The notes beneath the pieces were generated by a model. It did no database searches. It saw only the letters and a program-made list of their open reading frames with translations, and had not been told where the DNA came from. The position numbers were made by a program, and so were the translations under genes. This document shows positions 2,715 to 49,052 of a DNA stretch of 64,000 nt, in pieces (the first letter of the stretch is position 1; the number at the start of each line of letters is the position of its first letter). The DNA comes from Thermococcus pacificus (GTDB lineage: Archaea > Methanobacteriota_B > Thermococci > Thermococcales > Thermococcaceae), in NCBI RefSeq assembly GCF_002214485.1, contig NZ_CP015102.1:1-64000 (forward strand), in the 5' to 3' direction.

Positions 2715-3070
2715 CCAATGCTGAACGTCCGTTTCAGGATCTCCTTAACTTCATCCATCTTCTCGGGGCCAATCTCCCCAATGCTCTTGATAATGAGCGA
2801 TTTTTCGACCGTAAAAACAGAAGAACAGTCTATGAAGCTCTTCTTCTTGAGCTTACCCCGAAGGAGGTCTTTCTGCTCAAGTTCAACCGGGAATTCCTCA
2901 AAGTGTGGGCTTCCGGTTATTTTGAGCACTATCAAATCGTCGCTTACCTTGTTTAGCTCATCGGAGCTGACAACCAGCACGGGACGGAGCTTTTTTCCCA
3001 GGTAGTCTGTAAAGGGAAGCTCCAGGAGGAGTATCTCACCCTGCCTAAAATTCGAAGAGCTCCTCGGCAT
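2711..3070 (-). CDS. PemK/MazF-type toxin
   Basis: About 119 residues with the PemK/MazF pattern: an early R-x-G-E-I-(hydrophobic) strand, the K-x-R-P-V-L-V-V-S segment, and a later conserved F-x-D-C-S region. Family members are sequence-specific endoribonucleases neutralised by a small partner. The ATG at 3070 has a GGAGG site before it and lies inside the end of the upstream antitoxin gene (26-base overlap), the usual arrangement for a coupled type II module. Its end overlaps the 3' end of the convergent methyltransferase by 4 bases. Toxicity is inferred from the family only. Confidence 0.75.
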   Translation of the reverse strand: MPRSSSNFRQGEILLLELPFTDYLGKKLRPVLVVSSDELNKVSDDLIVLKITGSPHFEEFPVELEQKDLLRGKLKKKSFIDCSSVFTVEKSLIIKSIGEIGPEKMDEVKEILKRTFSIG

Positions 3071-3233
3071 CCTCTCCCTCCTGCAGGAGCTTGAGGTAGC
3101 CAAGCTCTTTCATCGCGTCCCTAACTTCAACCTTCTCAATCAGCAGCTTAATCCGTGAACCAGGGGGTATGTTCAGTTTTTTGAGGGGGATTATCACATC
3201 ACCGCGGTAGATGGCAACTATCTCCTCAGGCAT
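3045..3233 (-). CDS. AbrB/AF2212-like antitoxin
   Basis: A 62-residue protein with a short N-terminal beta-rich half (I-V-A-I-Y-R-G-D-V-I-I-P-L) like the small AF2212/DUF104 or AbrB-like antitoxins, followed by an acidic helical tail ending E-E-L-F-E-F that would bind the toxin. It is the first gene of the pair and overlaps the toxin start. A TATA-like element (gcttttaaacg, 3252-3262, read on the minus strand) sits upstream. Autoregulation by the pair is typical of the family but not shown by a clear operator here. Confidence 0.7.
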   Translation of the reverse strand: MPEEIVAIYRGDVIIPLKKLNIPPGSRIKLLIEKVEVRDAMKELGYLKLLQEGEDAEELFEF

Positions 3234-3274
3234 GATTAAAAATTAGAGGATCCGCTTTTAAACGTTTGGAGCTG

Positions 3275-3703
3275 TTACCCAATAAGCCTCTCGTGCTCCT
3301 GCTTTATGCACCTGTGGGCAACAGCTGTGAGTCCGGCCTCTTTGGCTTTCTTAAAGGCATCCCGGTTATAGGTGTTGAACTGGAACCACACGACCTTGGC
3401 GCCCTTCTCTATCGCCTGCTCCACGTACTCCATCGTGAACTCTGGGCGGACGAAGAGGTCTACTATATCAACTTCGTCCGGGATATCGAGGACGCTGGGG
3501 TAACACTTCCTTCCGAGGACTTCTTCATAGCGGGGGTTCACGGGGTAGACCTCGTAGCCCTTCTCAAGAAGATATCTCATCACCCTGTTGGCGTCGCGCT
3601 CTGGCTTTGGCGAAGCTCCCACGAGGGCTATCTTCCTGTACTTTGTTAGGATCTCCATGATTTCCTCATCGCTAAGCCTGTCAACAGGCATTATCCTTAC
3701 CAT
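3275..3703 (-). CDS. CoA-binding domain protein (YccU-like)
   Basis: A 142-residue single-domain Rossmann protein. I-A-L-V-G-A-S-P-K-P near residue 26 is the nucleotide/CoA-binding loop of the CoA-binding (YccU) family; V-Y-P-V-N-P and V-V-W-F-Q-F-N are further conserved strands. Stand-alone members bind CoA or acyl-CoA, but their physiological role is not settled. A GGTGG site lies before the ATG at 3703. It is divergent from the membrane gene at 3772. Confidence 0.85.
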   Translation of the reverse strand: MVRIMPVDRLSDEEIMEILTKYRKIALVGASPKPERDANRVMRYLLEKGYEVYPVNPRYEEVLGRKCYPSVLDIPDEVDIVDLFVRPEFTMEYVEQAIEKGAKVVWFQFNTYNRDAFKKAKEAGLTAVAHRCIKQEHERLIG

Positions 3704-3771
3704 CTTACCACCAGCCTGCTTTCCACCTCAAGGTTTAAAGGAGTAACCCTTCAAGAATCTCCGGTGGTGCA

Positions 3772-4209
3772 ATGGCCCTCTACGAGGAGAATGTTTCGAG
3801 CAGGGGCTTCAGGATTTTTCTGATCCTCGCAGCGCTGCCGATGCTCTTCGGCCTCTATGCGACCTATATGGCCGGTGAGGGCTTTGAGTTCATGCTCATC
3901 ACAGCGCTTCTCGTCGTGCTCGTGTTGGTAGATGCTATGGAGCTGAGGATCGAGATAGACGAGCGCGAGGTAAGGATACGGGGGCCAATCGGACTTCTCA
4001 TCAAGAAAACTGTCAAGATAGAGAACATCGAGAGCTTCTCCGTTGCGGAGGGCTGGATGAGCTGTTCTGGAGCAATCCACTTCAATCTCCCAGCCAAGGG
4101 CTGCATAATGCTGAGGCAGAAAAAGGGCTGGACGGTTTCCTTCACGACGAACAATCCCGAGGAAGTTGCCCGAGTTCTGGCGATGCTCGGCGTTCCACGA
4201 GCACCCTAG
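3772..4209 (+). CDS. two-TM membrane protein with C-terminal beta domain
   Basis: A 145-residue protein with two hydrophobic helices (about residues 13-33 and 40-55) followed by a beta-rich, PH-like soluble part (E-I-D-E-R-E-V-R-I-R-G-P). I do not recognise a characterised family; it resembles small bacterial-PH/YdbT-like membrane proteins. The ATG at 3772 has a GGTGGTG site, and aaggtttaaagg at 3731 is a plausible TATA box. Its 3' end overlaps the convergent NfeD gene by 68 bases. Confidence 0.65.
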   Translation: MALYEENVSSRGFRIFLILAALPMLFGLYATYMAGEGFEFMLITALLVVLVLVDAMELRIEIDEREVRIRGPIGLLIKKTVKIENIESFSVAEGWMSCSGAIHFNLPAKGCIMLRQKKGWTVSFTTNNPEEVARVLAMLGVPRAP

Positions 4210-4561
4210 TCCCCTTCACTCCTACTATCACTACCTTCTCTCCCCTTTTTGCGGTTCCTTTTATACACTCGGCGCTCCAAAGCTCACCGTCAATCTTCAC
4301 AAGGCCCTCTGGAGCCAAATCCTCAACCACCACAGCGGTTTTCCCGATCAGGCTCTCGGGGCCCGTCTGAGGTCTGACGCTGAGGCCACCACGTAGGACG
4401 AATGGAGCGATGAGAAAGTCCTTGACCAGGAGGATACCTATGATGACCGCCACCGCCCAGAGGGGAACCTCAACCCCGAATCTCGGAAGCACAATGAGAA
4501 GGAAGAGGCCCACAGCGATTTCGTCCGCCGCCAGCGCGAGGAGCGTGATGAAGTTCCTCAT
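4142..4561 (-). CDS. NfeD-like membrane protein, short form
   Basis: About 139 residues: two transmembrane helices (about residues 5-24 and 32-52) and then an OB-fold-like soluble domain with I-G-K-T-A-V-V-V, G-E-L-W-S-A and G-E-K-V-V-I-V-G-V-K-G, the signature of the NfeD C-terminal domain. Short NfeD proteins often work beside stomatin-like proteins, but none is adjacent here. The ATG at 4561 overlaps the stop codon of the upstream peptidase gene, so the two are translationally coupled. Confidence 0.75.
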   Translation of the reverse strand: MRNFITLLALAADEIAVGLFLLIVLPRFGVEVPLWAVAVIIGILLVKDFLIAPFVLRGGLSVRPQTGPESLIGKTAVVVEDLAPEGLVKIDGELWSAECIKGTAKRGEKVVIVGVKGTRVLVERRASPELGQLPRDCSS

Positions 4562-5205
4562 TCCCCACCACCGAGCCATCTCCAGTATGGATTCAGCTCG
4601 ATGATGCTCCACCACTTCTTGAGCTCTTTCCTGGCTTTCCTGTAGTCAGGATAAAAGCGCCCGACGAGGTTCCAGAACGCCTTTGAGTGGTTCATGTACT
4701 TCAGGTGGGCCAGCTCATGAACCACCACATACTCCCTGAGCTTAGGCGGGACGGAAACGAGGCGGACGTTGAAGTTAAGGTTCCCTCTGGGGGAGCAGCT
4801 TCCCCACCTGCTTCGTTGGTGCCTGATGAATACCTTCTTTGGGGAAACGCCCATCTCTCTGGAGTATTCATCGACTAAGGCCAGTATCCTGGGTCTGAGA
4901 TATGACTTAAGCTCGGCTATGGCCTCGTCTGGATAGGCTGAGAAGACGACTGTCCTGAACTTCTCGTGCACCTTGGTCTTTCTCCCGCGGATGACCTGGT
5001 ACAGCTCCCCGTCTATGGGAAACCCCGACCCGGTTCTCTCGCGGAGGTTTTTAATCTCGGCCAGCTTGGCCTCAAGCCACCCCTTATGGCGCTCCACAAA
5101 GGACTCAACGTCAAAGCCTTTGGGTGCGGTAACGACTACCCTGCCGTCAGGCTTCACCTCAATCCGCGCGTACCTGACGGGTCTTCTTCTGATTTCCAAA
5201 TCCAT
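4558..5205 (-). CDS. YgjP/SprT-like zinc metallopeptidase (DUF45)
   Basis: About 215 residues. The zinc motif H-E-L-A-H lies at about 163-167 with a third ligand H-S-K-A-F at about 173, and the family block R-x-R-W-G-S-C-S lies near 132-138. Members of this M48-related family are presumed soluble zinc peptidases; their substrates are unknown. The ATG at 5205 has an aaaggtgatggg site. The gene is divergent from the radical SAM gene and coupled to NfeD downstream. Confidence 0.8.
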   Translation of the reverse strand: MDLEIRRRPVRYARIEVKPDGRVVVTAPKGFDVESFVERHKGWLEAKLAEIKNLRERTGSGFPIDGELYQVIRGRKTKVHEKFRTVVFSAYPDEAIAELKSYLRPRILALVDEYSREMGVSPKKVFIRHQRSRWGSCSPRGNLNFNVRLVSVPPKLREYVVVHELAHLKYMNHSKAFWNLVGRFYPDYRKARKELKKWWSIIELNPYWRWLGGGE

Positions 5206-5242
5206 CCCATCACCTTTTAAGGGAATCTGGCAACTTGAACTT

Positions 5243-6043
5243 ATGAACCTTCGGGTTATCGAGAAAAAGGCCAAAAGCATATACACCCGCTCGAAGATTC
5301 CCGGCGTCGACTGGACAGTGAACCAGTACGTCGGCTGTGCCTTCGCCTGCAAATACTGCTACGCCAAGTTCATGGCGAAATGGAGAGACTACGGCGAGTG
5401 GGGCAGCTGGGTGGAAGTTAAGACCAACGCGCCCGATCTTGCCAGAAAGCGCGTTAAAGGGAGCGTTGTCATGTCCACGGTGAGCGACCCGTACCAGCCG
5501 ATAGAATCGGGGCTAAAACTAACGAGGCGGGTTCTCCAGTACATGGACAAGAGGAACGAGCTCTCCATCCTGACGAAGTCGCCACTCGTGACGCGGGACA
5601 TTGACATCTTTAAACTCTTCCGCTCGATAGAGGTGGGTTTAACCATAAACGGATTCACGGGGAGGGAGAAGAGGCTCTTCGAACCGCTGACACCTGTTCA
5701 TGAGGCGAGAGTGAGCGCACTAAAGGAGTTGAAGGAAGCCGGGCTGAGAACGTACGTCTTCGTTAGCCCGATAATTCCTGAAATAACGGACGTCTCGGCT
5801 ATACTCGGGGACACGAGAGACTTCGCGGACTACTACTTTTTCGAGGTTCTGAACCTCCGGGCGGCGGGAAAGGAGTTTCAGGCCCTGCTCAAAGAGGAGT
5901 ACCCGGAAAGCTATGGGGCTCTGACTGACCTCGGGAAGTTCGGGGAGTTCATACGGAGGCTGAAGGAGGAGATAAAAGGCCTTGGGATAAAGGCCGATGG
6001 AATAGAGACCCACCAGAGGGGCTGGGAGTTCGTGGAAATCTAG
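5243..6043 (+). CDS. radical SAM protein, SplB-like
   Basis: A 266-residue radical SAM enzyme. The [4Fe-4S] ligands lie in C-A-F-A-C-K-Y-C-Y (Cys32, Cys36, Cys39), a CX3CX2C pattern followed by aromatic Y. V-M-S-T-V-S-D-P-Y-Q-P near residue 75 and L-T-K-S-P-L are typical of the SPL/Rv2578c-like group. The reaction is unknown; relatives include spore photoproduct lyase, but most archaeal copies are uncharacterised. The ATG at 5243 is the first that leaves the N-terminus aligned to the family. It ends 4 bases inside the convergent glycerate kinase locus. Confidence 0.8.
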   Translation: MNLRVIEKKAKSIYTRSKIPGVDWTVNQYVGCAFACKYCYAKFMAKWRDYGEWGSWVEVKTNAPDLARKRVKGSVVMSTVSDPYQPIESGLKLTRRVLQYMDKRNELSILTKSPLVTRDIDIFKLFRSIEVGLTINGFTGREKRLFEPLTPVHEARVSALKELKEAGLRTYVFVSPIIPEITDVSAILGDTRDFADYYFFEVLNLRAAGKEFQALLKEEYPESYGALTDLGKFGEFIRRLKEEIKGLGIKADGIETHQRGWEFVEI

Positions 6044-7367
6044 GCACCTTTCCCATCCCCGGAAATCACCGCAATCACCAGCGAGTTAACGTTCGTCCCC
6101 GTTGGCCCCGTTCTGAGGAGGGCCCCGACCCTCTCAAGGGCGTGATAGGCGTTGTGCCTCCTGAGGACTTCTTCGACATCGACTCCAGCTTCTTTCAGCT
6201 TTTCGAGGGTTTCTCCGTCAACTATTCCGCCAGCCGCATCAGTCGGCCCGTCAGTCCCGTCGGTGTCCACCGCCAGGACGGCCGCGTTAAGGCCCGCTAT
6301 CTTCCGGGCAACGCTCAGGGCGAACTCCTGGTTCGGACCGCCGAGGCCGGCCCCTCCCGTTATCGTCACCGTCCACTCGCCGCCCGCTATCAGGACGGCG
6401 GGCTTCTTGAGCGGCCTGTCGTTCCGTGCTACCTCCTGGACTATCGAGCCTATTGCGAGCGCACCTCACGGGCCTCGCCCTCCAAGGTGGTGGTGAGCAC
6501 CGCCGCATTGTATCCCAGTTCTTCCGCCTTCTTCTTAGCTGCCTCGCAGGCCATCGTTCCGCTCCCCCCGATGAAGTTGTGGACGTTTGGCAAGTCCTCT
6601 TTCAGCGTCTCCTCGGCTTCTCCCCTCAAACCGCGCTCGATGTGCTTCTTAACGCTCTCCGGCAGTTTCTTCCAGACGCCGTAGAGGTTTAGAATCCTGT
6701 AGGCATCCTGGAACGTCGTGGGGTCCTTCACGGTGGGGCCCGACGCTATCGCCTCGAGCGGGTCGCCGACGACGTCGGAGAGGATTAAGCTTATTACCGT
6801 CCCTCTAACGTGCTTTGCAAGCTTTCCACCCTTCACCGCGGAGATGTGCTTTCTCACCGTGTTTATCTCGTATATCTTTGCGCCGCTCTTTAGCAGGAGC
6901 TCGTTCGTCCGGATTTTATCGTCGAGACTTATTCCCTTCTCCGGAAGGAGGAATAGCGCTGAACCGCCACCGGAGATGAGGACGAGGAGAATGTCTTCGG
7001 GACCGACTTTCTCCGCCAGCTCAAGGCCAAGTTTGGCACCGAGGAGGGAGTTCTCATCTGGAACAGGGTGGCCGGCCTCGATAACCTTGATTCCCTGCAT
7101 TCGGGGGCAGTTCTCCGCGTAGCCGTATTTGGTGACGACGACTCCTTCATCGATTGCACCGCCGAGGACATCTATCGCTGCCCGGGCCATGGCGCAGGCG
7201 GCCTTGCCGAAGGCGAGGAGGTAGACCCTGCCTCTGATCTCGAACGTCTTACCTAAAACCCTGAGAACATTTCCTCCAATCTCAATCGCATTCCTCACCG
7301 CGAGATGGGGGTCAGCGGCCTTCAGCGCGGCGTCGAGTATCGCAAGAGCATCTTTCAAGGGGTTCAT
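6040..7367 (-). pseudogene. glycerate 2-kinase (MOFRL family), frameshifted
   Basis: Two adjacent minus-strand reading frames together make one MOFRL-type glycerate kinase of about 442 residues, phosphorylating D-glycerate to 2-phosphoglycerate. The N-terminal part (start to about 6451) has V-L-I-S-G-G-G-S-A-L, N-T-V-R-K-H-I-S and I-L-S-D-V-V-G-D-P. The C-terminal part has the MOFRL block with G-G-P-N-Q-E-F-A and D-T-D-G-T-D-G-P-T-D-A-A-G. Between them the frame reads E-V-R-S-Q-stop. Adding one base near 6461 restores V-(A/G)-L-A-I-G-S-I-V-Q-E-V-A and continues without a stop to 6040. This is a single-base deletion or a sequencing error; the rest is intact. A gatttttaag TATA box about 26 bases before the ATG at 7367 suggests a leaderless transcript. 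Confidence 0.85.
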
Positions 7368-7396
7368 GACAAAAAATTGGAACAAGACCTTAAAAA

Positions 7397-8071
7397 TCAG
7401 TCGAGCATGGCCAAAACTTTATCGACCTCGTTGGAAACCTCGACGTCGAAGAGGTGTATCGTCGGCAGAAGCCACCAGAGGCGGTACTGGTGGGCCTTGT
7501 CCTCCTCGCCGAAGTACTGGAAGACGAACCTTCCAAAGCCCGTCATGTCGCGGTGTATGTCCCTTACCTCCCTGAGAACGCGCCTCACCTTCGGCGGATA
7601 CTCCTCGTAGGGCAGGGGCAGGCCCTTCACGAAAACCCTGTCCTTGAAGAAGTCCGTGGTAAGGCCAACGCTCCCGACATGCTTCTCCAGCTGGTTGAAC
7701 TTCTTCTCCGTCCAGAAGCGGTGGAGAATTAGTCTCGGGTCTTCCTTCGCCAGCGGGAAGTTGCCCTCCTCGGTGTCGAGCCAGAACTCGAGGTAGGGTT
7801 GACCTCCCTCTATGACTATCCTCGCCAAAAGCCTGGCGTTCTTTGGTATTTCCCTCTGGGTTTCGCTGATATGGTATTCCTTACCGTCCCGCGTGTAGGT
7901 TTCGCCTTCCTCCCTGGTTCCGGCCTTTGAGACAAAGTAGGCCTCCGTGCCATCAATCGTCCCTAAGTGGAGATCATAGCCCCAGGCCTTCAGGTCTTTG
8001 AACTTGAACCTCCTCTCGGCGGGGACAACTCCGGTGTTCTCGACTATGTAGTAGCCGTCGAGCATTTTCAT
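7397..8071 (-). CDS. conserved hypothetical protein
   Basis: A soluble protein of about 224 residues with no cysteine and no membrane segment; many aromatic residues and a basic-acidic mix suggest a compact alpha/beta domain. I do not recognise it beyond a resemblance to proteins found only in Thermococcales. Starts at GTG 8074, ATG 8071 and ATG 8065 are close together; the TATA-like ctttttaat just upstream makes a short or absent leader likely, so the exact start is uncertain. It precedes the glycerate kinase locus in the same direction with a 29-base gap. Confidence 0.65.
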   Translation of the reverse strand: MKMLDGYYIVENTGVVPAERRFKFKDLKAWGYDLHLGTIDGTEAYFVSKAGTREEGETYTRDGKEYHISETQREIPKNARLLARIVIEGGQPYLEFWLDTEEGNFPLAKEDPRLILHRFWTEKKFNQLEKHVGSVGLTTDFFKDRVFVKGLPLPYEEYPPKVRRVLREVRDIHRDMTGFGRFVFQYFGEEDKAHQYRLWWLLPTIHLFDVEVSNEVDKVLAMLD

Positions 8072-8101
8072 CACTAAAAGTTATTAAAAAGGCAAGAGCT
8101 T

Positions 8102-8527
8102 TTAAAGGTTTTCATCGATTATGAGTTCGACCTCTGCCACAGTTCCAGGGTTCTTCAAAAGTTCAACAATGCGCCTGTCTATGTCCCTGGCTGCTTTGTT
8201 GGCCCTCACCGCGAGCGTTCTTCCGTCTATGTAAGTGCTCTTACGGACCACCATCGAGTAATCGTGGTCGAGTATCAGGTCTGGGCTTCCCTCAGCCAGG
8301 ACTTCATCCACAATGCCGCTTACCCTAATCCTGATGAGGAGCCTTTTTCCAGCCTTTAACGCAGCTTTAAACTCCTCGCTCAGGTCGTTTATCCCTTTAT
8401 CAGCCCCGATGCAGATTATGCAGTCTCCGCGCGGGGTCAGGTAGTCCTCCTTCGTGAACTCCAGCGTCGATTTGTGCGTGGCTTTAACGTTCTCATGGCC
8501 CCTGCAGTGGATGACTTCCCTCAGCAT
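8102..8527 (-). CDS. DUF371 family protein
   Basis: A 141-residue protein matching the DUF371 pattern: L-R-E-V-I-H-C-R-G-H-E-N-V near the start, C-I-I-C-I-G-A-D-K-G, and D-H-D-Y-S-M-V-V-R-K-S. The histidine- and cysteine-rich N-terminal half may bind metal or RNA, but no function is established. The ATG at 8527 is where family homology begins; the upstream in-frame extension looks non-coding and overlaps the divergent small gene. Confidence 0.8.
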   Translation of the reverse strand: MLREVIHCRGHENVKATHKSTLEFTKEDYLTPRGDCIICIGADKGINDLSEEFKAALKAGKRLLIRIRVSGIVDEVLAEGSPDLILDHDYSMVVRKSTYIDGRTLAVRANKAARDIDRRIVELLKNPGTVAEVELIIDENL

Positions 8528-40382: not shown

Positions 40383-41363
40383 TCACTCCTTTCCGTAGAG
40401 CCAGCAGGCAACGTAGTGGCCGTTTTCGACCTCAATGAGGGGCGGCTCCTTCCTGTCGCAGAGACCCGCCTTGGCGAAGGGACACCTCGGGTGGAAGCGG
40501 CATCCCTGGGGCGGGTTTATCGGGCTCGGCGGCTCCCCTTCCACTTTCATGCGCTTGGCTTTGAGCTCCTTGGCGAGCTCCGGGTCCGGAACAGGTATCG
40601 CCGACAGGAGGAACTTGGTGTACGGGTGGAGCGGGTTCTCGAATATCTCCTCCGCCGGGCCGACCTCGACGAGTTTTCCAAGGTACATCACGCCCATCCT
40701 GTGGCTCATGTACTTGACGACTCCGAGGTCGTGGCTGATGAAGAGGTAGGTGAACCCGAACTCCTTCTGGAGATCCTTGAGGGTGTTGAGGATGTTGGCC
40801 TGCACCGAAACGTCGAGCGCCGAGGTGGGCTCGTCGAGGACAATGAACTCTGGCTTGAGAGCGAGGAGCCTCGCGAGGGCTATGCGCTGTCTCTGGCCGC
40901 CGGAGAACTCATGCGGATAACGGTAGAGGTGCATCTCATTGAGGCCAACGCTCTCGAGGAGCTTTATCACGAACTCCTCTGGGTCGTCCACGGGTATCTT
41001 GTGGAAGCGGACGGGCTCCATGATTATCTCAAAGACGGTCTGGCGTGGGTTAAGGGAGGAGTAGGGGTCCTGGAACATTATCTGGGCCTTCCTGCGGAAC
41101 CACTTCATCTCTTCCCCTTTGAGCTGCGTGACGTCCTTGCCCTGAAAGATGATCTGGCCTGCGGTTGGCTCTATTAGACGGAGTATCGTCCTTCCTGTCG
41201 TCGTCTTTCCGCAGCCGCTCTCACCCACGAGGCCGAAGGTCTCCCCACGGTTTATCGTGAAGCTTATGTCGTCAACGGCCTTGACGTAGCCCTCCGTCCT
41301 TATTAAACCCCTGATGGGGAAGTACTTTTTGAGGTTCTTAACCTCGAGTATCGGCTCGCTCAT
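40383..41363 (-). CDS. oppF: oligopeptide ABC transporter ATPase, OppF type
   Basis: A 326-residue ATPase: Walker [10 protein letters not shown] (about 45), signature F-S-G-G-Q-R-Q-R, Walker B F-I-V-L-D-E-P, and the C-terminal cysteine motif C-R-F-H-P-R-C-P-x-A-x-x-x-C that binds an Fe-S cluster in Opp/Dpp ATPases. It is the last gene of the operon and drives uptake with OppD. Confidence 0.93.
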
Positions 41364-41372
41364 GCTATCACC

Positions 41373-42353
41373 TCAGTACAGGTGGCAGGCCACGAAGTGG
41401 CCGGGTTCTATCTCCTTCAGCTCGGGAACCTTCTCCTTGCAGGCGCCCATAACCCTCGGGCACCTCGGGTGGAAGCGGCAGCCGCTGGGGGGCTCGATGA
41501 GGTTCGGAACGGTTCCAGGAATTGTCTCGAGCCTGTCTATTTTTCCGAGCGGATTTGGAACCGCCCTGAGGAGTCCCTGGGTGTACGGGTGGAGCGGGTT
41601 CTCGAATATCTGCTCGACGGAGCCGATCTCAACGATTTTACCCGCGTACATGACGGCAACGCGGTCGGCCATCTCAGCGACGACACCCATGTTGTGTGTG
41701 ATGAGGATCACAGTGGTGTTGTATTCCCTCTTGAGCTTGTTTATGAGATCGAGTATCTGAGCCTGAACGGTGACGTCGAGGGCCGTTGTTGGCTCGTCGG
41801 CTATGAGTATCTTCGGGTTGTTTGAAACGCCTATTCCAATGACAACACGCTGCTTCATTCCCCCGCTCATCTCATGCGGGTAGTTCTTCACCCTGTTCTC
41901 CGGATCCGGGATGAGGACGCGCCTGAGTATATCTACAGCCTTCCTAAAGCCCTCTTTCCAGTCCTTAACGGTCTCATGAACGACCATGGCCTCGGCTATC
42001 TGGTAGCCAACGGTGTAGAGCGGGTCGAGGGACGCGTGCGGGTCCTGGAAGATGTAGGCGATTTCTTTGCCGCGAATCTTCCTTATCTCCTCAGGGTCAA
42101 GCTTGAGCAGGTCGACGGTGGAGCCGTCATCACGGTGGTAGATTACGCTTCCCTCAACGATCCTTCCCGGGCTCTCTATGAGCTGAGTGAGCGCCCTGGA
42201 GGTAACGCTCTTACCGCAGCCGGTCTCTCCGACGAGGGCAAAGGTTTCACCGCGGTAGACATCGAATGAGACCCTCTCAATGGCCTTGACTATACCGGCG
42301 TAGGTGTAAAAGTGGACGGTAAGGTCCCTAACCTCAAGGATCGGCTCAGGCAT
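41373..42353 (-). CDS. oppD: oligopeptide ABC transporter ATPase, OppD type
   Basis: A 326-residue ATPase: Walker A G-E-T-G-C-G-K-S, signature M-S-G-G-M-K-Q-R, Walker B I-L-I-A-D-E-P, and the same C-terminal C-R-F-H-P-R-C-P motif followed by later cysteines. The ATG at 42353 lies inside the end of oppC (8-base overlap), with GGTGAGAG as ribosome binding site. Confidence 0.93.
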   Translation of the reverse strand: MPEPILEVRDLTVHFYTYAGIVKAIERVSFDVYRGETFALVGETGCGKSVTSRALTQLIESPGRIVEGSVIYHRDDGSTVDLLKLDPEEIRKIRGKEIAYIFQDPHASLDPLYTVGYQIAEAMVVHETVKDWKEGFRKAVDILRRVLIPDPENRVKNYPHEMSGGMKQRVVIGIGVSNNPKILIADEPTTALDVTVQAQILDLINKLKREYNTTVILITHNMGVVAEMADRVAVMYAGKIVEIGSVEQIFENPLHPYTQGLLRAVPNPLGKIDRLETIPGTVPNLIEPPSGCRFHPRCPRVMGACKEKVPELKEIEPGHFVACHLY

Positions 42354-43524
42354 TGCTCTCACCCTCCTTCTTGGCCTTCTTGACCTTGAACTCTATGCTC
42401 CTCCTCGTCTTCGGGTCGAGGATGTCTCTCATGGTGTCTCCGAGGAGGTTCCAGCCGAGGGCCACAAGCATAATCATGAAGCCCGAGAACGTGACCAGCC
42501 ACCACTTCTCCGGGAAGTACTGGGAGCCGTCGTAGACTATCCTACCCCAGTCCGCTATCGGCGGCGTTGCACCGAGGCCGAGGAAGCTCAGGCCGGCCTC
42601 CATGAGGATAACACCGCCGAAGTCAAGGGTTATGTAAACCAGTATCGGCCCTATGATGTTGGGCAGGATGTGTCTGAACATTATCGTCCTTGAGCTGAGG
42701 CCTATTGCCCTTGCCGCCTCGACGTACAGGCTCTCCCTCTCAGTCAGCGTCGAACCCCTGGTGATCCTCGCGTAGGCCGGCCACCAGACGATGATCATTG
42801 CCAGTATGACAGCGAGCAGTTTTCCGAGGTTCCCCGCGTCCTGCTGTTCAAGGGCAAAGAGCCACAGCACGAACCTCTGTATCGACTCGTGAGCCGAGAT
42901 GAAGTTCTGAAGCCTCTGCGGAAGGACGGCGGAGAAAGCTATGGCCAGGATAAGCGCTGGAAAAGCCAGGAAGACGTCGGTTATGCGCATGACAAGCTCG
43001 TCAACCTTTCCGCCATAGTAGCCCGCTACGAGACCAAGGATGATTCCAAGGGGCACTCCAAGGGCGATGACTATTATCGAGATCACGAAAGAGACCCTGG
43101 CGCCGTAGAGGATGAGGCTGAGGAGGTCCCTTCCGTAGTGGTCCGCACCGAGGGGGTAGTGGATGGTAGTTATGTACTGGATGACGTTGTCGCCCTGGAT
43201 CTCAGTAACGTTCAGGGTGTAGGTCGATCCAGGTGGGGCGAGGTATGTGTCAAAGTTGTAGTTGGTCGGGAAGAACCTGTAGCTCCACGTGGCGAGACTC
43301 GGGCCGAAGAGGCCGAGGAATACGAACATCAGGACGAGGAGGAGGCCTATAAGGCCGGGCGGAGAGCGGTTCAGTGCGTAGAGCATGAGCTTCCATTCTT
43401 CCATCTTTGAGCGGTTCTTCTTTTTCCAGTCCTTCCTGAATAGGCTGAAGAATGATCCGAGTGCCTCAACCAGCGCATCAGAAAGCCTGTCAAGCACGTT
43501 GGTCTTATACTCTTCCCTTCCCAT
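42346..43524 (-). CDS. oppC: oligopeptide ABC transporter permease, OppC type
   Basis: A 392-residue permease with a long basic N-terminal cytoplasmic part (about 55 residues), a first helix, a 70-residue extracytoplasmic loop, and five more helices. E-A-A-R-A-I-G-L-S...R-H-I-L-P-N is the EAA motif that contacts the ATPases. It is larger than typical OppC because of the N-terminal part. A 20-base gap separates it from oppB. Confidence 0.9.
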   Translation of the reverse strand: MGREEYKTNVLDRLSDALVEALGSFFSLFRKDWKKKNRSKMEEWKLMLYALNRSPPGLIGLLLVLMFVFLGLFGPSLATWSYRFFPTNYNFDTYLAPPGSTYTLNVTEIQGDNVIQYITTIHYPLGADHYGRDLLSLILYGARVSFVISIIVIALGVPLGIILGLVAGYYGGKVDELVMRITDVFLAFPALILAIAFSAVLPQRLQNFISAHESIQRFVLWLFALEQQDAGNLGKLLAVILAMIIVWWPAYARITRGSTLTERESLYVEAARAIGLSSRTIMFRHILPNIIGPILVYITLDFGGVILMEAGLSFLGLGATPPIADWGRIVYDGSQYFPEKWWLVTFSGFMIMLVALGWNLLGDTMRDILDPKTRRSIEFKVKKAKKEGESNA

Positions 43525-43544
43525 TTTATCACCTCACTCACGTC

Positions 43545-44546
43545 TCAGTACCTCACCCTCGGGTCTATTAGAGCGTAGAGTATGTCCACGACGAGGTTGG
43601 TTATGAGGAATATCAGGGCGAAGACCATGGTTATCGCCACCACCGCCGGGAAGTCGAGGTTCCTGATGGACTCTATGACGTAGGAACCCATTCCAGGGAG
43701 GCCGAAGACGGTCTCCGTGATCGGGGTTCCACCGAGGAGGCCACCGAACTGGAGTCCGAGGACTGTGACTATTGGAACCATGGCGTTCTTGAGAGCGTGA
43801 CGGTAGATGGCCCTCTTGGGGACGCCCTTCGCCTTAAGGAACGCGACGTAGTCGCTGCTTATGGCCTCGAGGAAGCTGTTCCTGACGAACCTCGCCAGGA
43901 CGCCGGCTCCCATGAAGCCGAGCGTGAAGCCCGGAAGCCAGAGCCTGTGGAGGTGCTGGCCGAGGGTCTGGAAATCGCCCGTGATCAGGGCGTCTATTAT
44001 CGGGATGTGGGTTATCTGGTGCTCCGGCGGGGCCGGGAAGCCCGCGAGGGTTATCCAGTGGACCTTAACGAAGAACACGAAGATGAGGAGGTAGCCCAAC
44101 CAGAACACCGGCATGGAAACGCCGGTGAGGGCGAAGAACCTGATGACGGTATCCACCCAGGTGTTCCTCTTAAGGGCCGAGATTATACCCAGGGGTATCC
44201 CTATGATCAGTATGAAAAAGAACGCCATCAACGCCAGCTCAAACGTTACTGGAAACCTCTCGCTTATGTCGTCGAACACGTAGTTGGATGTCCTCGGGTC
44301 TATTATGTCATTCTTTGCCAGACCGCTTACTAGGAACCAGTATTGGTCGTACCAAGGCTCATCGAGGTGGTACTCCTTTCTGATCTGCTCCATGTACGCC
44401 TGGCTGGCCTTCTCACCACCGGCCCACGCTCTGGCAACGTCCGCGGGAATGACGTACGCTATCAAAAAGACTATGAGAGTGACTCCGATGAGGGTCGGTA
44501 TGAAAGTGAGGAGCCTCCTTATCAGGAATTTCTTCAGGTTCGCCAA
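43545..44546 (-). CDS. oppB: oligopeptide ABC transporter permease, OppB type
   Basis: About 333 residues with six helices: a first helix (about 10-30), a long external loop, and the EAA motif K-A-K-G-V-P-K-R-A-I-Y-R-H-A-L-K-N. The TTG at 44546 is preferred because GGGGGG lies six bases upstream and homology starts with A-N-L-K-K-F-L-I-R-R; the ATG at 44582 has no ribosome binding site but cannot be excluded. It follows the binding protein gene. Confidence 0.88.
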   Translation of the reverse strand: MANLKKFLIRRLLTFIPTLIGVTLIVFLIAYVIPADVARAWAGGEKASQAYMEQIRKEYHLDEPWYDQYWFLVSGLAKNDIIDPRTSNYVFDDISERFPVTFELALMAFFFILIIGIPLGIISALKRNTWVDTVIRFFALTGVSMPVFWLGYLLIFVFFVKVHWITLAGFPAPPEHQITHIPIIDALITGDFQTLGQHLHRLWLPGFTLGFMGAGVLARFVRNSFLEAISSDYVAFLKAKGVPKRAIYRHALKNAMVPIVTVLGLQFGGLLGGTPITETVFGLPGMGSYVIESIRNLDFPAVVAITMVFALIFLITNLVVDILYALIDPRVRY

Positions 44547-44623: not shown

Positions 44624-46798
44624 TCAGCTGACGGTTATCTCAAGGCTCTTGAATTCCGTGGCGCCGTAGAGGAACGGGCCAACCCAGTTGTCGGAGTCGA
44701 GGTAATCCGGGACCCAACCGACGATATAAACGTCGTACTCGCCGTGCTCGGTCTTGTCAAGGTAGGTCGGCCAGTTGTAGCTGTTGACGGTGACCTGGAA
44801 GCCGAGCTGGCTCCAGACGTTCTGGAGGAGGGTCATGATTTTCTCACGTGCCGCGTTGCCCTCGTTGTAGATGAGCTCTATCTTGTACTGGGTCGGGTCG
44901 ACGCCGGCCTGGTTGAGAAGCTGCTTAGCCTTGGCAAGGTTGTAGTTGTACTTGATGATGCCCTCCTCGGTGTAGCCAGGCCACGGCTTCGGTATCGGTC
45001 CGTAGTTCATCTCGAGGAGTCCCTGGTAGACGATCTGCTTTATCTGATCGTATGGGACGGCGTAGGCAAGGGCCTCCCTGACTAGTGGATCGTTGAAGGG
45101 CTCCTTCTGGGTGTTGAAGACGAGGAAGGTCAATATCGGCTGGAGGATGTCGGTCTGGACAACTGAGTTGAACCCATCGAGGGTGAGACCCTTTACGGTG
45201 TCCATCTTCTCAGGCGGTATGACGACGACGTCTGCCGTTCCGGTCTTGAAGATGTTAATCCTCGCCATGGCGTCGCTGTTGATGATGTAGACGACCCTCT
45301 TGTGGCCCGGAGTTGCCGTAGCGTTCCAGTAGTACGGGTTGTACTCGAGGACGATATAGGCGTCCTTCTGGTAGTCTGCCACATAGAACGGACCTGTTCC
45401 AACAGGGTTGTTGTGCATGAGCTGGTGGGTCGGATCACTCTTGCCCTCGCTCAGGTAGTTCCACCAAGCGCTCGGGTTGTGGCCGTTGTCGCTGGCTGCG
45501 AGGGCCTCCTCATACTTGTCGCCGAGGAGGTACTCCATCGGGACGACGCTGAGGAACGGGTCGGCTAGTATTCCGAGAACAGGAGCGTAGGGCTGCGGCA
45601 GGACAAGCTTGAAGACTCCGGCGGTGTCCCCGCTGTAACCGAAGAACTGCTTGAGCTCGTCAAGGCTCTTGACCTCGGTGCTCTTGCCGCCGAACTCGGC
45701 GACGAGCGGGTGCTCCTTGAGGTACTGGTCAAACTCGTCCTCGGTGAGCGCGGCGGAGTTGTTGACATCCATGAAGCCGTCGACCATCCAGCTGACACTG
45801 TGACCGAGTCTCTCAACACGGAGGAAGGTGAAGGCAACGTCGGTGGCGTCGATCGGGTAGGTCTTGTCGTTCCACGGGTCGTAGGCCTTAACGCCGCCGC
45901 GGATTAGGAAGTACCACTCGGTGCCATCCTTGTTGTGGGCCCAGGCAACGGCGAGGTCCGGGCTGACGGTCTCGGTGTCCTCCTTCCAGTAGGTGACGAG
46001 GGTGTCACCGATCTCGTGCCAGATCTCCCATCCGAAGGTCTCGTAGGTCATGGCGGGGTCAAAGCTCTCCGGCCAGCCAATCGTGGCTATGGTGTAAGTC
46101 TCGGGGTCGTTGGTGTAGTCCTTGATACCGATCTTGACGGTCGGGGCGCTGGAGTCCTCGCTCAGGAGGTCGTAGCGCTCAGCAAGGGTCGGGTGGTAGT
46201 AGCGTCCCTTGACCCAGTCCCAGTAGACACGAAGCTGCCTGTTCTGGCCGAGGATAACCTCGGGCACGAGCTTGTTTCCGAGCATATAGAGGGCCTTAAA
46301 GAGCTCCGTCCTTATGGTCGGGTCAGTTTCACGCCTGGCGGCTATGATGAGGGCATCGACATGCTCATCGCGGAAGAAGGCCGGGTTAATGGCACCGAAT
46401 CCCTGACCCTGTTCCATGAGGGTCTGGACGTCTGGGGTGTTGGCCTCGTCAACCTCGTACTCAATCTTTATGACCTTCCTGTCGGTGGGTACCTCAACGG
46501 TGGGGCTGGCCCCCTTAGGGCCAACGACTACGACGCTCTTATCGGTGACGATAACGTAGACGTTGTCCATCTCGAGTATTCCAGGTTTCACTTCCGCCGG
46601 GGTCTGGGTGGTCGTTTGGGTGGACGTGGCAGTTCCACCCGAGGATGTCGTGGTCTGGCCACCTGTCTGGCTCTCAGTGGTAGTCTGGCTCTGGGAAATT
46701 GTGGTGGTTTCGCCTCCGCCACTGATACAGCCGCTGGCAACAACCGAGAAAACTACCAAAAACACGACCAATAGGGCTATTGTAGGCTTTGCCTTCAT
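44624..46798 (-). CDS. peptide-binding lipoprotein with permuted-looking domain order
   Basis: A 724-residue extracytoplasmic solute-binding protein (SBP family 5). Signal peptide to V-A-S-G-C (lipobox, Cys24), then a Thr/Ser/Gln-rich linker to about residue 65. Next (about 135-215) comes a piece that in ordinary family members lies at the C-terminus: a D-A-L-I-I-A-A-R-R-E-T-D-P segment and W-D-W-V-K-G-R-Y-Y-H-P. Then the usual N-terminal start (I-G-W-P-E-S-F-D-P-A) and the rest follow, ending abruptly after P-D-Y-L-D-S-D-N-W-V-G-P-F-L. This suggests circular permutation of the C-terminal strand-helix region. It delivers peptides to OppBCDF. Confidence 0.85.
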   Translation of the reverse strand: MKAKPTIALLVVFLVVFSVVASGCISGGGETTTISQSQTTTESQTGGQTTTSSGGTATSTQTTTQTPAEVKPGILEMDNVYVIVTDKSVVVVGPKGASPTVEVPTDRKVIKIEYEVDEANTPDVQTLMEQGQGFGAINPAFFRDEHVDALIIAARRETDPTIRTELFKALYMLGNKLVPEVILGQNRQLRVYWDWVKGRYYHPTLAERYDLLSEDSSAPTVKIGIKDYTNDPETYTIATIGWPESFDPAMTYETFGWEIWHEIGDTLVTYWKEDTETVSPDLAVAWAHNKDGTEWYFLIRGGVKAYDPWNDKTYPIDATDVAFTFLRVERLGHSVSWMVDGFMDVNNSAALTEDEFDQYLKEHPLVAEFGGKSTEVKSLDELKQFFGYSGDTAGVFKLVLPQPYAPVLGILADPFLSVVPMEYLLGDKYEEALAASDNGHNPSAWWNYLSEGKSDPTHQLMHNNPVGTGPFYVADYQKDAYIVLEYNPYYWNATATPGHKRVVYIINSDAMARINIFKTGTADVVVIPPEKMDTVKGLTLDGFNSVVQTDILQPILTFLVFNTQKEPFNDPLVREALAYAVPYDQIKQIVYQGLLEMNYGPIPKPWPGYTEEGIIKYNYNLAKAKQLLNQAGVDPTQYKIELIYNEGNAAREKIMTLLQNVWSQLGFQVTVNSYNWPTYLDKTEHGEYDVYIVGWVPDYLDSDNWVGPFLYGATEFKSLEITVS

Positions 46799-47614: not shown

Positions 47615-47671
47615 CTTCTCACCTGACAAGGTTTAAAAGAACTGCCGTTAAAAACCCTTTTGGTGAGACGT

Positions 47672-48310
47672 ATGGACACATCCACCCTCAAGAAGTACCT
47701 TCTCGGTAAGGCCAACAGGGGAGATTCCGTTCTCATAGAATACGAGTCCACCTACCCGGTTGAAGGGTTCTCCTGGGGCTTCCTGATACCCGCGCTGCTC
47801 GAGAGAAACGGCGTTGTAGTGGCCGACTTCTTCGGCGTGGGTGATCTGCTGTTCAGGAACTACATACGCAGGGTTTCCGGAAGGGAGTACTCACGCACCA
47901 TCGAGCTTATGAGGAATATTAAGGTCGTTAAGATAGGTCCTGGCTCGGCCAGCTACGGTGGAGTCTTCGAAGAGATAACACCCACCTACGAGCCATCTAC
48001 ATTCCTGAAGAACTACCACACTATCATAAGCAAGATGAGCAGGCTGCCCTCCAAACCGGAGTATGTCGTCACCTTCGGCCTAGGACACTACATCCACTTT
48101 GGAGATGACGACGCCATCAGATCGTTGATAACTGCTGTCAGCACAATACCAACGGAGGACTGGGTGGGGGTTCACTTTATAAACGAGGGCGTCATGAGAA
48201 GGGAGCATCTAGCCATGCTTGAGGGGATATCCTCAATGGTCTTCCACGTCTCAGAGAGAGGTCTGAAAGTGAAGAAGGAAGGTGAGAGTATTGATCAGGG
48301 AGGGAGATAA
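47672..48310 (+). CDS. DUF257 family protein
   Basis: A 212-residue protein of the DUF257 family, common in Thermococcales: L-I-E-Y-E-S-T-Y-P-V near residue 25, G-R-E-Y-S-R-T, and a RecA-like general layout without an intact P-loop. The function is unknown. The ATG at 47672 follows GGTGA. Its end overlaps the start of trmI by 20 bases. Confidence 0.75.
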   Translation: MDTSTLKKYLLGKANRGDSVLIEYESTYPVEGFSWGFLIPALLERNGVVVADFFGVGDLLFRNYIRRVSGREYSRTIELMRNIKVVKIGPGSASYGGVFEEITPTYEPSTFLKNYHTIISKMSRLPSKPEYVVTFGLGHYIHFGDDDAIRSLITAVSTIPTEDWVGVHFINEGVMRREHLAMLEGISSMVFHVSERGLKVKKEGESIDQGGR

Positions 48311-49052
48311 GGTCCTGCTAATAGACAGGAGGGGCAAGCGCTACCTCGTAACGGTCTCCGACAGGGAGTTCCACACAGACCTGGGCATACTCAAGCTCGG
48401 GGAGCTTATAGGGAAGCCCTACGGATCCTCTATAACCAGCCACAAAGGGGAAGAGTTCAGGGTCATTAAGCCTGATATCAACGACATCATAGCCAAGATG
48501 AGGCGCGGGCCGCAGATCATCCACCCAAAGGACGCCGGCATAATAATCGCCTACGCGGGGATTTCGCCAGGAGACACGGTTATAGAGGCCGGCGTTGGCA
48601 GCGGCGCGCTCACAATTTTCCTGGCGAACATAGTGGGGCCGAGCGGAAGGGTAATCAGTTACGAAATCAGGGAAGACCACGCCGAGATAGCCCGGAAGAA
48701 CGTCGAACTAGCCGGCTTCTCTGATAGAGTCACAATAAAGCTCAAGGACATCTACGAGGGCATAGACGAGGAGCGCGCGGACCACATCGTGCTCGACTTA
48801 CCCCAGCCCGAGAACGTTCTACCTCACGCGGTCGAGGTTCTCCGCCCGGGAGGATACTTTGTGGCCTACACGCCCTGCGCCAACCAGGTCCACCGCTTCT
48901 TCCAGGCGTTTCAGGAGTACAGGGAGTACTTCTACAGGCCGAGGGTCGTCGAGGTTCTCGTCAGGGAGCAGGAGATCAAGAAGGAGTGCATGAGACCGAA
49001 GACGACGATGCTGGCCCACACGGGATACATAACCTTCATCCGGAAGCTGTGA
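48291..49052 (+). CDS. trmI: tRNA (adenine-57/58-N1)-methyltransferase
   Basis: A 253-residue TrmI. An N-terminal beta domain of about 60 residues is followed by the Rossmann domain: G-P-Q-I-I-H-P-K-D, I-E-A-G-V-G-S-G-A-L (motif I), and L-D-L-P-Q-P (motif IV). Archaeal TrmI methylates A57 and A58 in the T loop. The TTG at 48291 gives the length of the Pyrococcus enzyme and follows GGTGAG; GTG 48282 is the alternative. Confidence 0.9.
   Translation: MIREGDKVLLIDRRGKRYLVTVSDREFHTDLGILKLGELIGKPYGSSITSHKGEEFRVIKPDINDIIAKMRRGPQIIHPKDAGIIIAYAGISPGDTVIEAGVGSGALTIFLANIVGPSGRVISYEIREDHAEIARKNVELAGFSDRVTIKLKDIYEGIDEERADHIVLDLPQPENVLPHAVEVLRPGGYFVAYTPCANQVHRFFQAFQEYREYFYRPRVVEVLVREQEIKKECMRPKTTMLAHTGYITFIRKL

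Follow-up and report, generated by a model that had tools for sequence, protein, structure and literature searches.

The gene at 44624-46798 (minus strand) of the window, by which we mean the whole 64,000-nucleotide stretch of Thermococcus pacificus DNA analysed here, encodes a natural circular permutant of solute-binding protein (SBP) family 5: it has the segments of this family in the same circular order, but with other termini. Very likely, it is the peptide-binding, DppA-like lipoprotein of a dppBCDF importer, with ligand and transport being inferred. Among archaeal relatives, the same circle has been opened at no fewer than five points, three in a small insert, one in a YYWN..HK loop and one inside the middle part of the protein, and the tree requires six or more changes of opening class within archaea.

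The open reading frame is intact (ATG start, 724 amino acids, no internal stop). The residues of its lipobox, A21, S22, G23 and C24, are invariant among 12 homologues; a Thr/Ser-rich linker extends to about residue 72 and is followed by a block (residues 73-213) carrying ALIIAARRETDP (149-160) and WVKGRYYHP (195-203). The motif DSDNWVGPFL occupies residues 701-710, after which 14 residues remain to the C-terminus. We denote as T the tail that ends ordinary family 5 proteins, as N the N-terminal part and as M the middle part; ordinary members read N-M-T and the window protein T-N-M. Between M and T lies an insert (beta1-alpha1-beta2-beta3-beta4; about residues 73-136 plus 714-724 in the window protein), which is absent from bacterial N-M-T forms. 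The features of the gene, from the protein N-terminus onwards and with their basis in brackets, are:

46727..46798, minus strand: signal peptide and lipobox ASGC, residues 1-24, with lipidated Cys24 (sequence)
46583..46726, minus strand: Thr/Ser-rich linker, residues 25-72 (sequence; length varies between homologues)
46391..46582, minus strand: archaeal insert, N-terminal part, residues 73-136 (limits of T-profile matches; strands in AlphaFold2 model)
46160..46390, minus strand: displaced tail T, residues 137-213 (phmmer, T profile, hhalign; helix-helix-strand-strand in model)
46103..46159, minus strand: T-N fusion joint, residues 214-232, linking old C-terminus to old N-terminus (in all permuted forms)
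45323..46102, minus strand: N segment, residues 233-492 (Pfam SBP_bac_5 from residue 278; hhalign)
45299..45325, minus strand: loop NATATPGHK, residues 492-500, the M-T-N opening point (comparison with M-T-N forms)
44660..45301, minus strand: M segment, residues 500-713, with Asp698 and the DSDNW motif (Pfam, phmmer, hhalign)
45161..45184, minus strand: opening position of the sole Thermoplasmata form (L098), about residues 539-546 (comparison with L098)
44624..44659, minus strand: C-terminal strand (beta1) of the insert, residues 714-724, and stop codon, the T-N-M opening (sequence; model)

The Pfam profile SBP_bac_5 (PF00496) matches residues 278-713 with 229.8 bits against a cut-off of 32.4 and is covered from position 2 to 364 of 368. 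The canonical linear order N-M-T is absent, which makes the protein a permuted and not an ordinary member of the family. In the phmmer comparison with Y. pestis DppA (5f1q), residues 234-328 and 458-707 align with 30-125 and 200-445, and residues 148-216 align out of order with 468-536, a match that is weak alone (2.3 bits). The window protein was cut into segments (T, 77-215; N, 216-493; M, 497-724), and profiles of these were built from archaeal relatives. In N-M-T reading frames of Chloroflexota (L109-L125), the T profile matches the C-terminal end, immediately behind M (24-37 bits); its matches to bacterial reading frames start only at about T position 61-66. Using hhalign against a set of 20 canonical bacterial sequences, the columns rotated to N-M-T gave one alignment (score 488.9, query 26-624), the native T-N-M columns gave 423.6 plus an out-of-order T block of 83.7 (Prob 96.4, E 1.4e-9), and M-T-N columns gave two alignments (260 and 239). 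Third alignments, which are spurious, reach only about 19-22, and the match of the displaced T exceeds chance. With phmmer and a single sequence as query, rotation brought no gain in PDB score (124.5 vs 125.1 bits), because the tail is too divergent to be matched without profiles.

The nearest canonical-order relatives found are family 5 proteins of Chloroflexota (L111, L112, L119 and L125; about 25% identity), which are N-M-T and have no insert, whereas the archaeal window protein has the insert and is T-N-M. DppA and OppA (PDB 5f1q, 1dpp, 6ofq) are homologous in N and M by sequence and predicted fold and in T by profile, and are likewise encoded with two permeases and two oligo_HPY ATPases. 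In contrast to them, the window protein is ordered T-N-M, its old termini are joined, an insert lies where M meets T on the circle, and its N-terminal lipid tether is placed elsewhere on the chain.

Different orders of the same protein exist in other archaea. The whole-genome search in Thermococcaceae returned full-length collinear matches in most genomes; in genus g4 (G004, G009, G014) the pieces 499-723 and 77-493 are swapped. The M-T-N frames of g4 are open, possess signal peptide, lipobox and linker and occupy the position of the window gene in the same operon, flanked by the same genes. By BLASTP, the G009 protein shares 74% identity with the window protein over 77-492 and 77% over 499-721. 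Each of T, N and M of the g4 proteins has 78-90% identity to its closest T-N-M relative, whereas L102 and L103, M-T-N proteins of Thermoproteota, reach only 64-67% with the g4 proteins in the N segment. In a census with a rotated query, tallied from the results table, T-N-M was present in 56 of 94 Thermococcaceae genomes, M-T-N in three and N-M-T in none; five had broken or partial copies and two only distant canonical proteins at the cut-off. Scanning the genomes of 84,980 species, we found T-N-M also in Archaeoglobus and Acidilobaceae bins, and M-T-N in several Thermoproteota and Thermofilum. The family occurs in 39 of 398 Thermoproteota genomes searched, more distant T-N-M forms among them. 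One protein from a Thermoplasmata MAG bin (L098) is opened inside M, in the order M(43-225)-T-N-M(1-44), and a dppB-like gene follows it. SBP_bac_5 itself is matched in two pieces, the first-listed stretch being profile 149-365 in L096 and 177-364 in L098.

Some loci deserve mention individually. In L040 (G041, 2777-4863), the orthologue consists of two overlapping frames, one with T-N and one with M, lacks residues 438-483 and is broken or split. The orthologues in L045 (G060) and L046 (G020) are fragmented, contain stop codons and are apparent pseudogenes, and at the N-terminus of L066 (G093) signal and linker appear in a shifted frame, probably through a sequencing error or a mutation. A single Acidilobaceae bin contains three paralogues of the permuted protein, on three contigs (L099, L100, L101).

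Three of the openings fall in the insert. Opening A1, after beta1, is that of the window protein, Thermococcales and Archaeoglobi (chain ending ..FKSLEITVS); A2, after alpha1, is found in most Acidilobaceae-like proteins (..NPDEVKALFAGG); and A3, after beta3, in a distant T-N-M group (..WLVIVGEAK). Opening B, of the M-T-N forms, cuts the loop YYWN..LYGYKP / HKxVIYIINNDA, the uncut version of which is LYGQDKPQHEVVIF in T-N-M proteins. Opening C, of L098, lies inside M between RLDTVRGLTMKGKT and EFHSIVKTDILQP. Classes A1 to A3 were assigned by tail length and content; L180 was moved to A3 by eye, and L097, whose end is cut off, remained unclassed. As A1-A3 lie within some 40 residues, trimming or drift of the ends, and not separate events, could explain part of this variation.

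An earlier note, made from the sequence alone, had described a lipobox, a Thr-rich linker, a tail-like segment placed first and a chain ending after DSDNWVGPFL, and had read this as a circular permutation. The layout held at the level of sequence coordinates, and three independent lines support the reading: the rotated alignment, the reordered orthologues of the same operon and the Pfam profile matched in two pieces. The case named there as a refutation, an added domain alongside an ordinary C-terminal lobe that is complete, does not apply: there is no second T, and the chain stops 14 residues past DSDNWVGPFL. Its question whether the order is common to all Thermococcales homologues is answered in the negative by genus g4. 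It also requires a correction, in that the opening falls inside the archaeal insert and thus in a part that bacterial relatives lack.

For the phylogeny, all sequences were rotated to one order (IQ-TREE, LG+C20, 68 rows, 631 columns). The four orders require six changes on the tree, five of them within archaea; the six opening classes require seven, six within archaea. The M-T-N proteins of g4 are nested, with strong support, among T-N-M proteins of Thermococcaceae and Archaeoglobi. A single clade of all M-T-N proteins was rejected (delta lnL 312, p-AU 1.2e-6). Caution is due for the long branches L105, L180 and L181. Despite the tree, the M-T-N openings of g4 and Thermoproteota look like one event, as they use the same loop and have the nearly identical ending LYGYKP. 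This might be accounted for if a favoured loop was opened in parallel, or if a duplicate was retained and then resolved.

The T-N joint of all permuted forms reads ..ERYDLxWEDPNAPxVxIGIxDYKNDPETYVIATIGWPxSFDPA; a contiguous T-N match was found in none of 301 Chloroflexota genomes. We infer that a common ancestor would have formed a tandem or fused duplicate (signal-N-M-T-N-M-T), the ends of which would have been trimmed differently in each lineage, every survivor keeping the T-N joint. One fused duplicate, trimmed per lineage, is the simplest explanation for the common joint. No duplicated intermediate was found in the family loci collected, although absence in this sample does not exclude one, and duplication is therefore not distinguished from fission and fusion. 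The stretch separating the g4 gene from dppB showed no remnants of a second copy. As a separate observation, the M-T-N gene of L171 (G315) forms the final part of an open frame of 1297 residues (4241-8131), in which no second family segment was found; residues 1-630 of this frame show no match to the family and are possibly non-coding. Programmed DNA rearrangement was rejected, the genome of the window being one contig with one copy.

The other explanations differ much in their merits. That the orders are assembly artefacts of metagenome bins is all but ruled out: the order of L098 does depend on one 4.9 kb MAG contig, but T-N-M is present in 56 genomes, some of them single-contig, and M-T-N in the single-contig genome G004, in G009 and in many Thermoproteota; moreover, every frame is open with its own signal and linker, and the same permease gene follows in G004, G009, G014 and L098. 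It is also highly improbable that the N-terminal block is a foreign added domain and the C-terminus merely truncated, without any permutation. The first 60 residues of the block (the insert) have no counterpart in bacterial relatives, which would favour this view; however, by profile, residues 137-213 correspond to the tail at the C-terminus of canonical proteins, and orthologues place the same block directly after M.

Fission and fusion, a history in which separate genes for N-M and T, or for T-N and M, became rejoined in a new order, appears unlikely. In its favour, G041 carries T-N and M in two overlapping frames and a tandem duplicate was not seen; against it, G041 looks broken because of its missing residues, and the process would have to be repeated for every opening, whereas one fused duplicate accounts for the common T-N joint. 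It remains possible that the archaeal ancestor was M-T-N and that T-N-M arose several times, in place of a further change from T-N-M to M-T-N in g4. The almost identical termini in g4 and Thermoproteota, the uncut insert of g4 and the T-N-M openings, which vary by at least one insert element between clades, speak for such an ancestor. Against it, more changes are needed than in the most parsimonious history, and g4 is nested within T-N-M with strong support.

Natural circular permutation is a known phenomenon, observed in saposin/swaposin and in DNA methyltransferases, the latter with documented intermediates and likewise with several orders (PMC3320104). Such permutations are usually regarded as single ancient events separating distant relatives. 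Unlike methyltransferases and swaposin, the present case concerns a single transport protein whose orthologues, at one chromosomal locus, show several openings, and every form carries an export signal of its own; to our knowledge, such a case is unusual. In the literature searched, which was confined to open-licence papers, we found no description of a solute-binding protein that is permuted in nature. Since the orders differ between orthologues of the same operon with about three quarters of their residues identical, history, mechanism and functional cost can be studied directly. Order-dependent annotation and sequential fold searches misread this family, and where a binding protein carries its tether may be free to vary in evolution. 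A bolder reading attributes at least six re-openings, at five or more places, to selection on tether exit or to repeated formation of fused duplicates. We lean slightly against it; if true, it would make the family a natural test series for the effects of permutation on an ABC importer.

Downstream of the window gene, in the same operon, the following genes were identified:

43545..44546, minus strand: dppB-like permease, probable TTG start at 44546 (Pfam BPD_transp_1, 147 bits)
42346..43524, minus strand: dppC-like permease (Pfam BPD_transp_1 and OppC_N)
41373..42362, minus strand: dppD-like ATPase (Pfam ABC_tran and oligo_HPY; best NCBIfam models OppD/DppD, below cut-off)
40383..41363, minus strand: dppF-like ATPase (Pfam ABC_tran and oligo_HPY; best NCBIfam models DppF/OppF, below cut-off)

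Two BPD_transp_1 permeases and two oligo_HPY ATPases (40383-44546) therefore indicate a Dpp/Opp importer. The window protein falls short of the DppA equivalog model NCBIfam NF043070 (126 bits vs 1005 needed).

The AlphaFold2 model of the window protein, from 22 T-N-M sequences, is confident (pLDDT 88, pTM 0.83), with the insert strand at the end of its chain. For an M-T-N protein, only a poor model was obtained (pLDDT 58.5, 6 sequences). The best PDB matches of the window protein model are all family 5 proteins of DppA, OppA and GbpA types (6ofq, 1dpe, 5f1q, 3m8u; E to 3.6e-25). Structure prediction had been proposed in the earlier note as a check, but Foldseek aligns sequentially (TM about 0.5-0.67), and its result cannot by itself show permutation. 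The further idea of that note, that permutation moved the hinge-closing region beside the membrane anchor, remains an inference without supporting data.

By phmmer, Asp698 aligns with the Asp of GWTGD in DppA. This Asp is the ligand of the peptide amino-terminus in DppA. We infer that the folded domain would be an ordinary two-lobed clamp, that it would bind peptides with Asp698 replacing the DppA residue (there are no binding data) and that it would hand them to DppBC (there are no transport data). The permutation would shift the exit point of the lipid tether and leave the clamp itself unchanged. The openings may have moved under the requirement that the tether exits the clamp compatibly with permease docking, or may be neutral. 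In T. kodakarensis proteomics, the peptide SBP YP_184217, which we take, as a guess, to be the orthologue of the window protein, was down in stationary phase and reportedly up in oxidative stress (PMC4870337). At 47660-49052 of the window, a gene for a DUF257 protein adjoins a tRNA methyltransferase (GCD14) gene, and both are kept upstream at the g4 loci.
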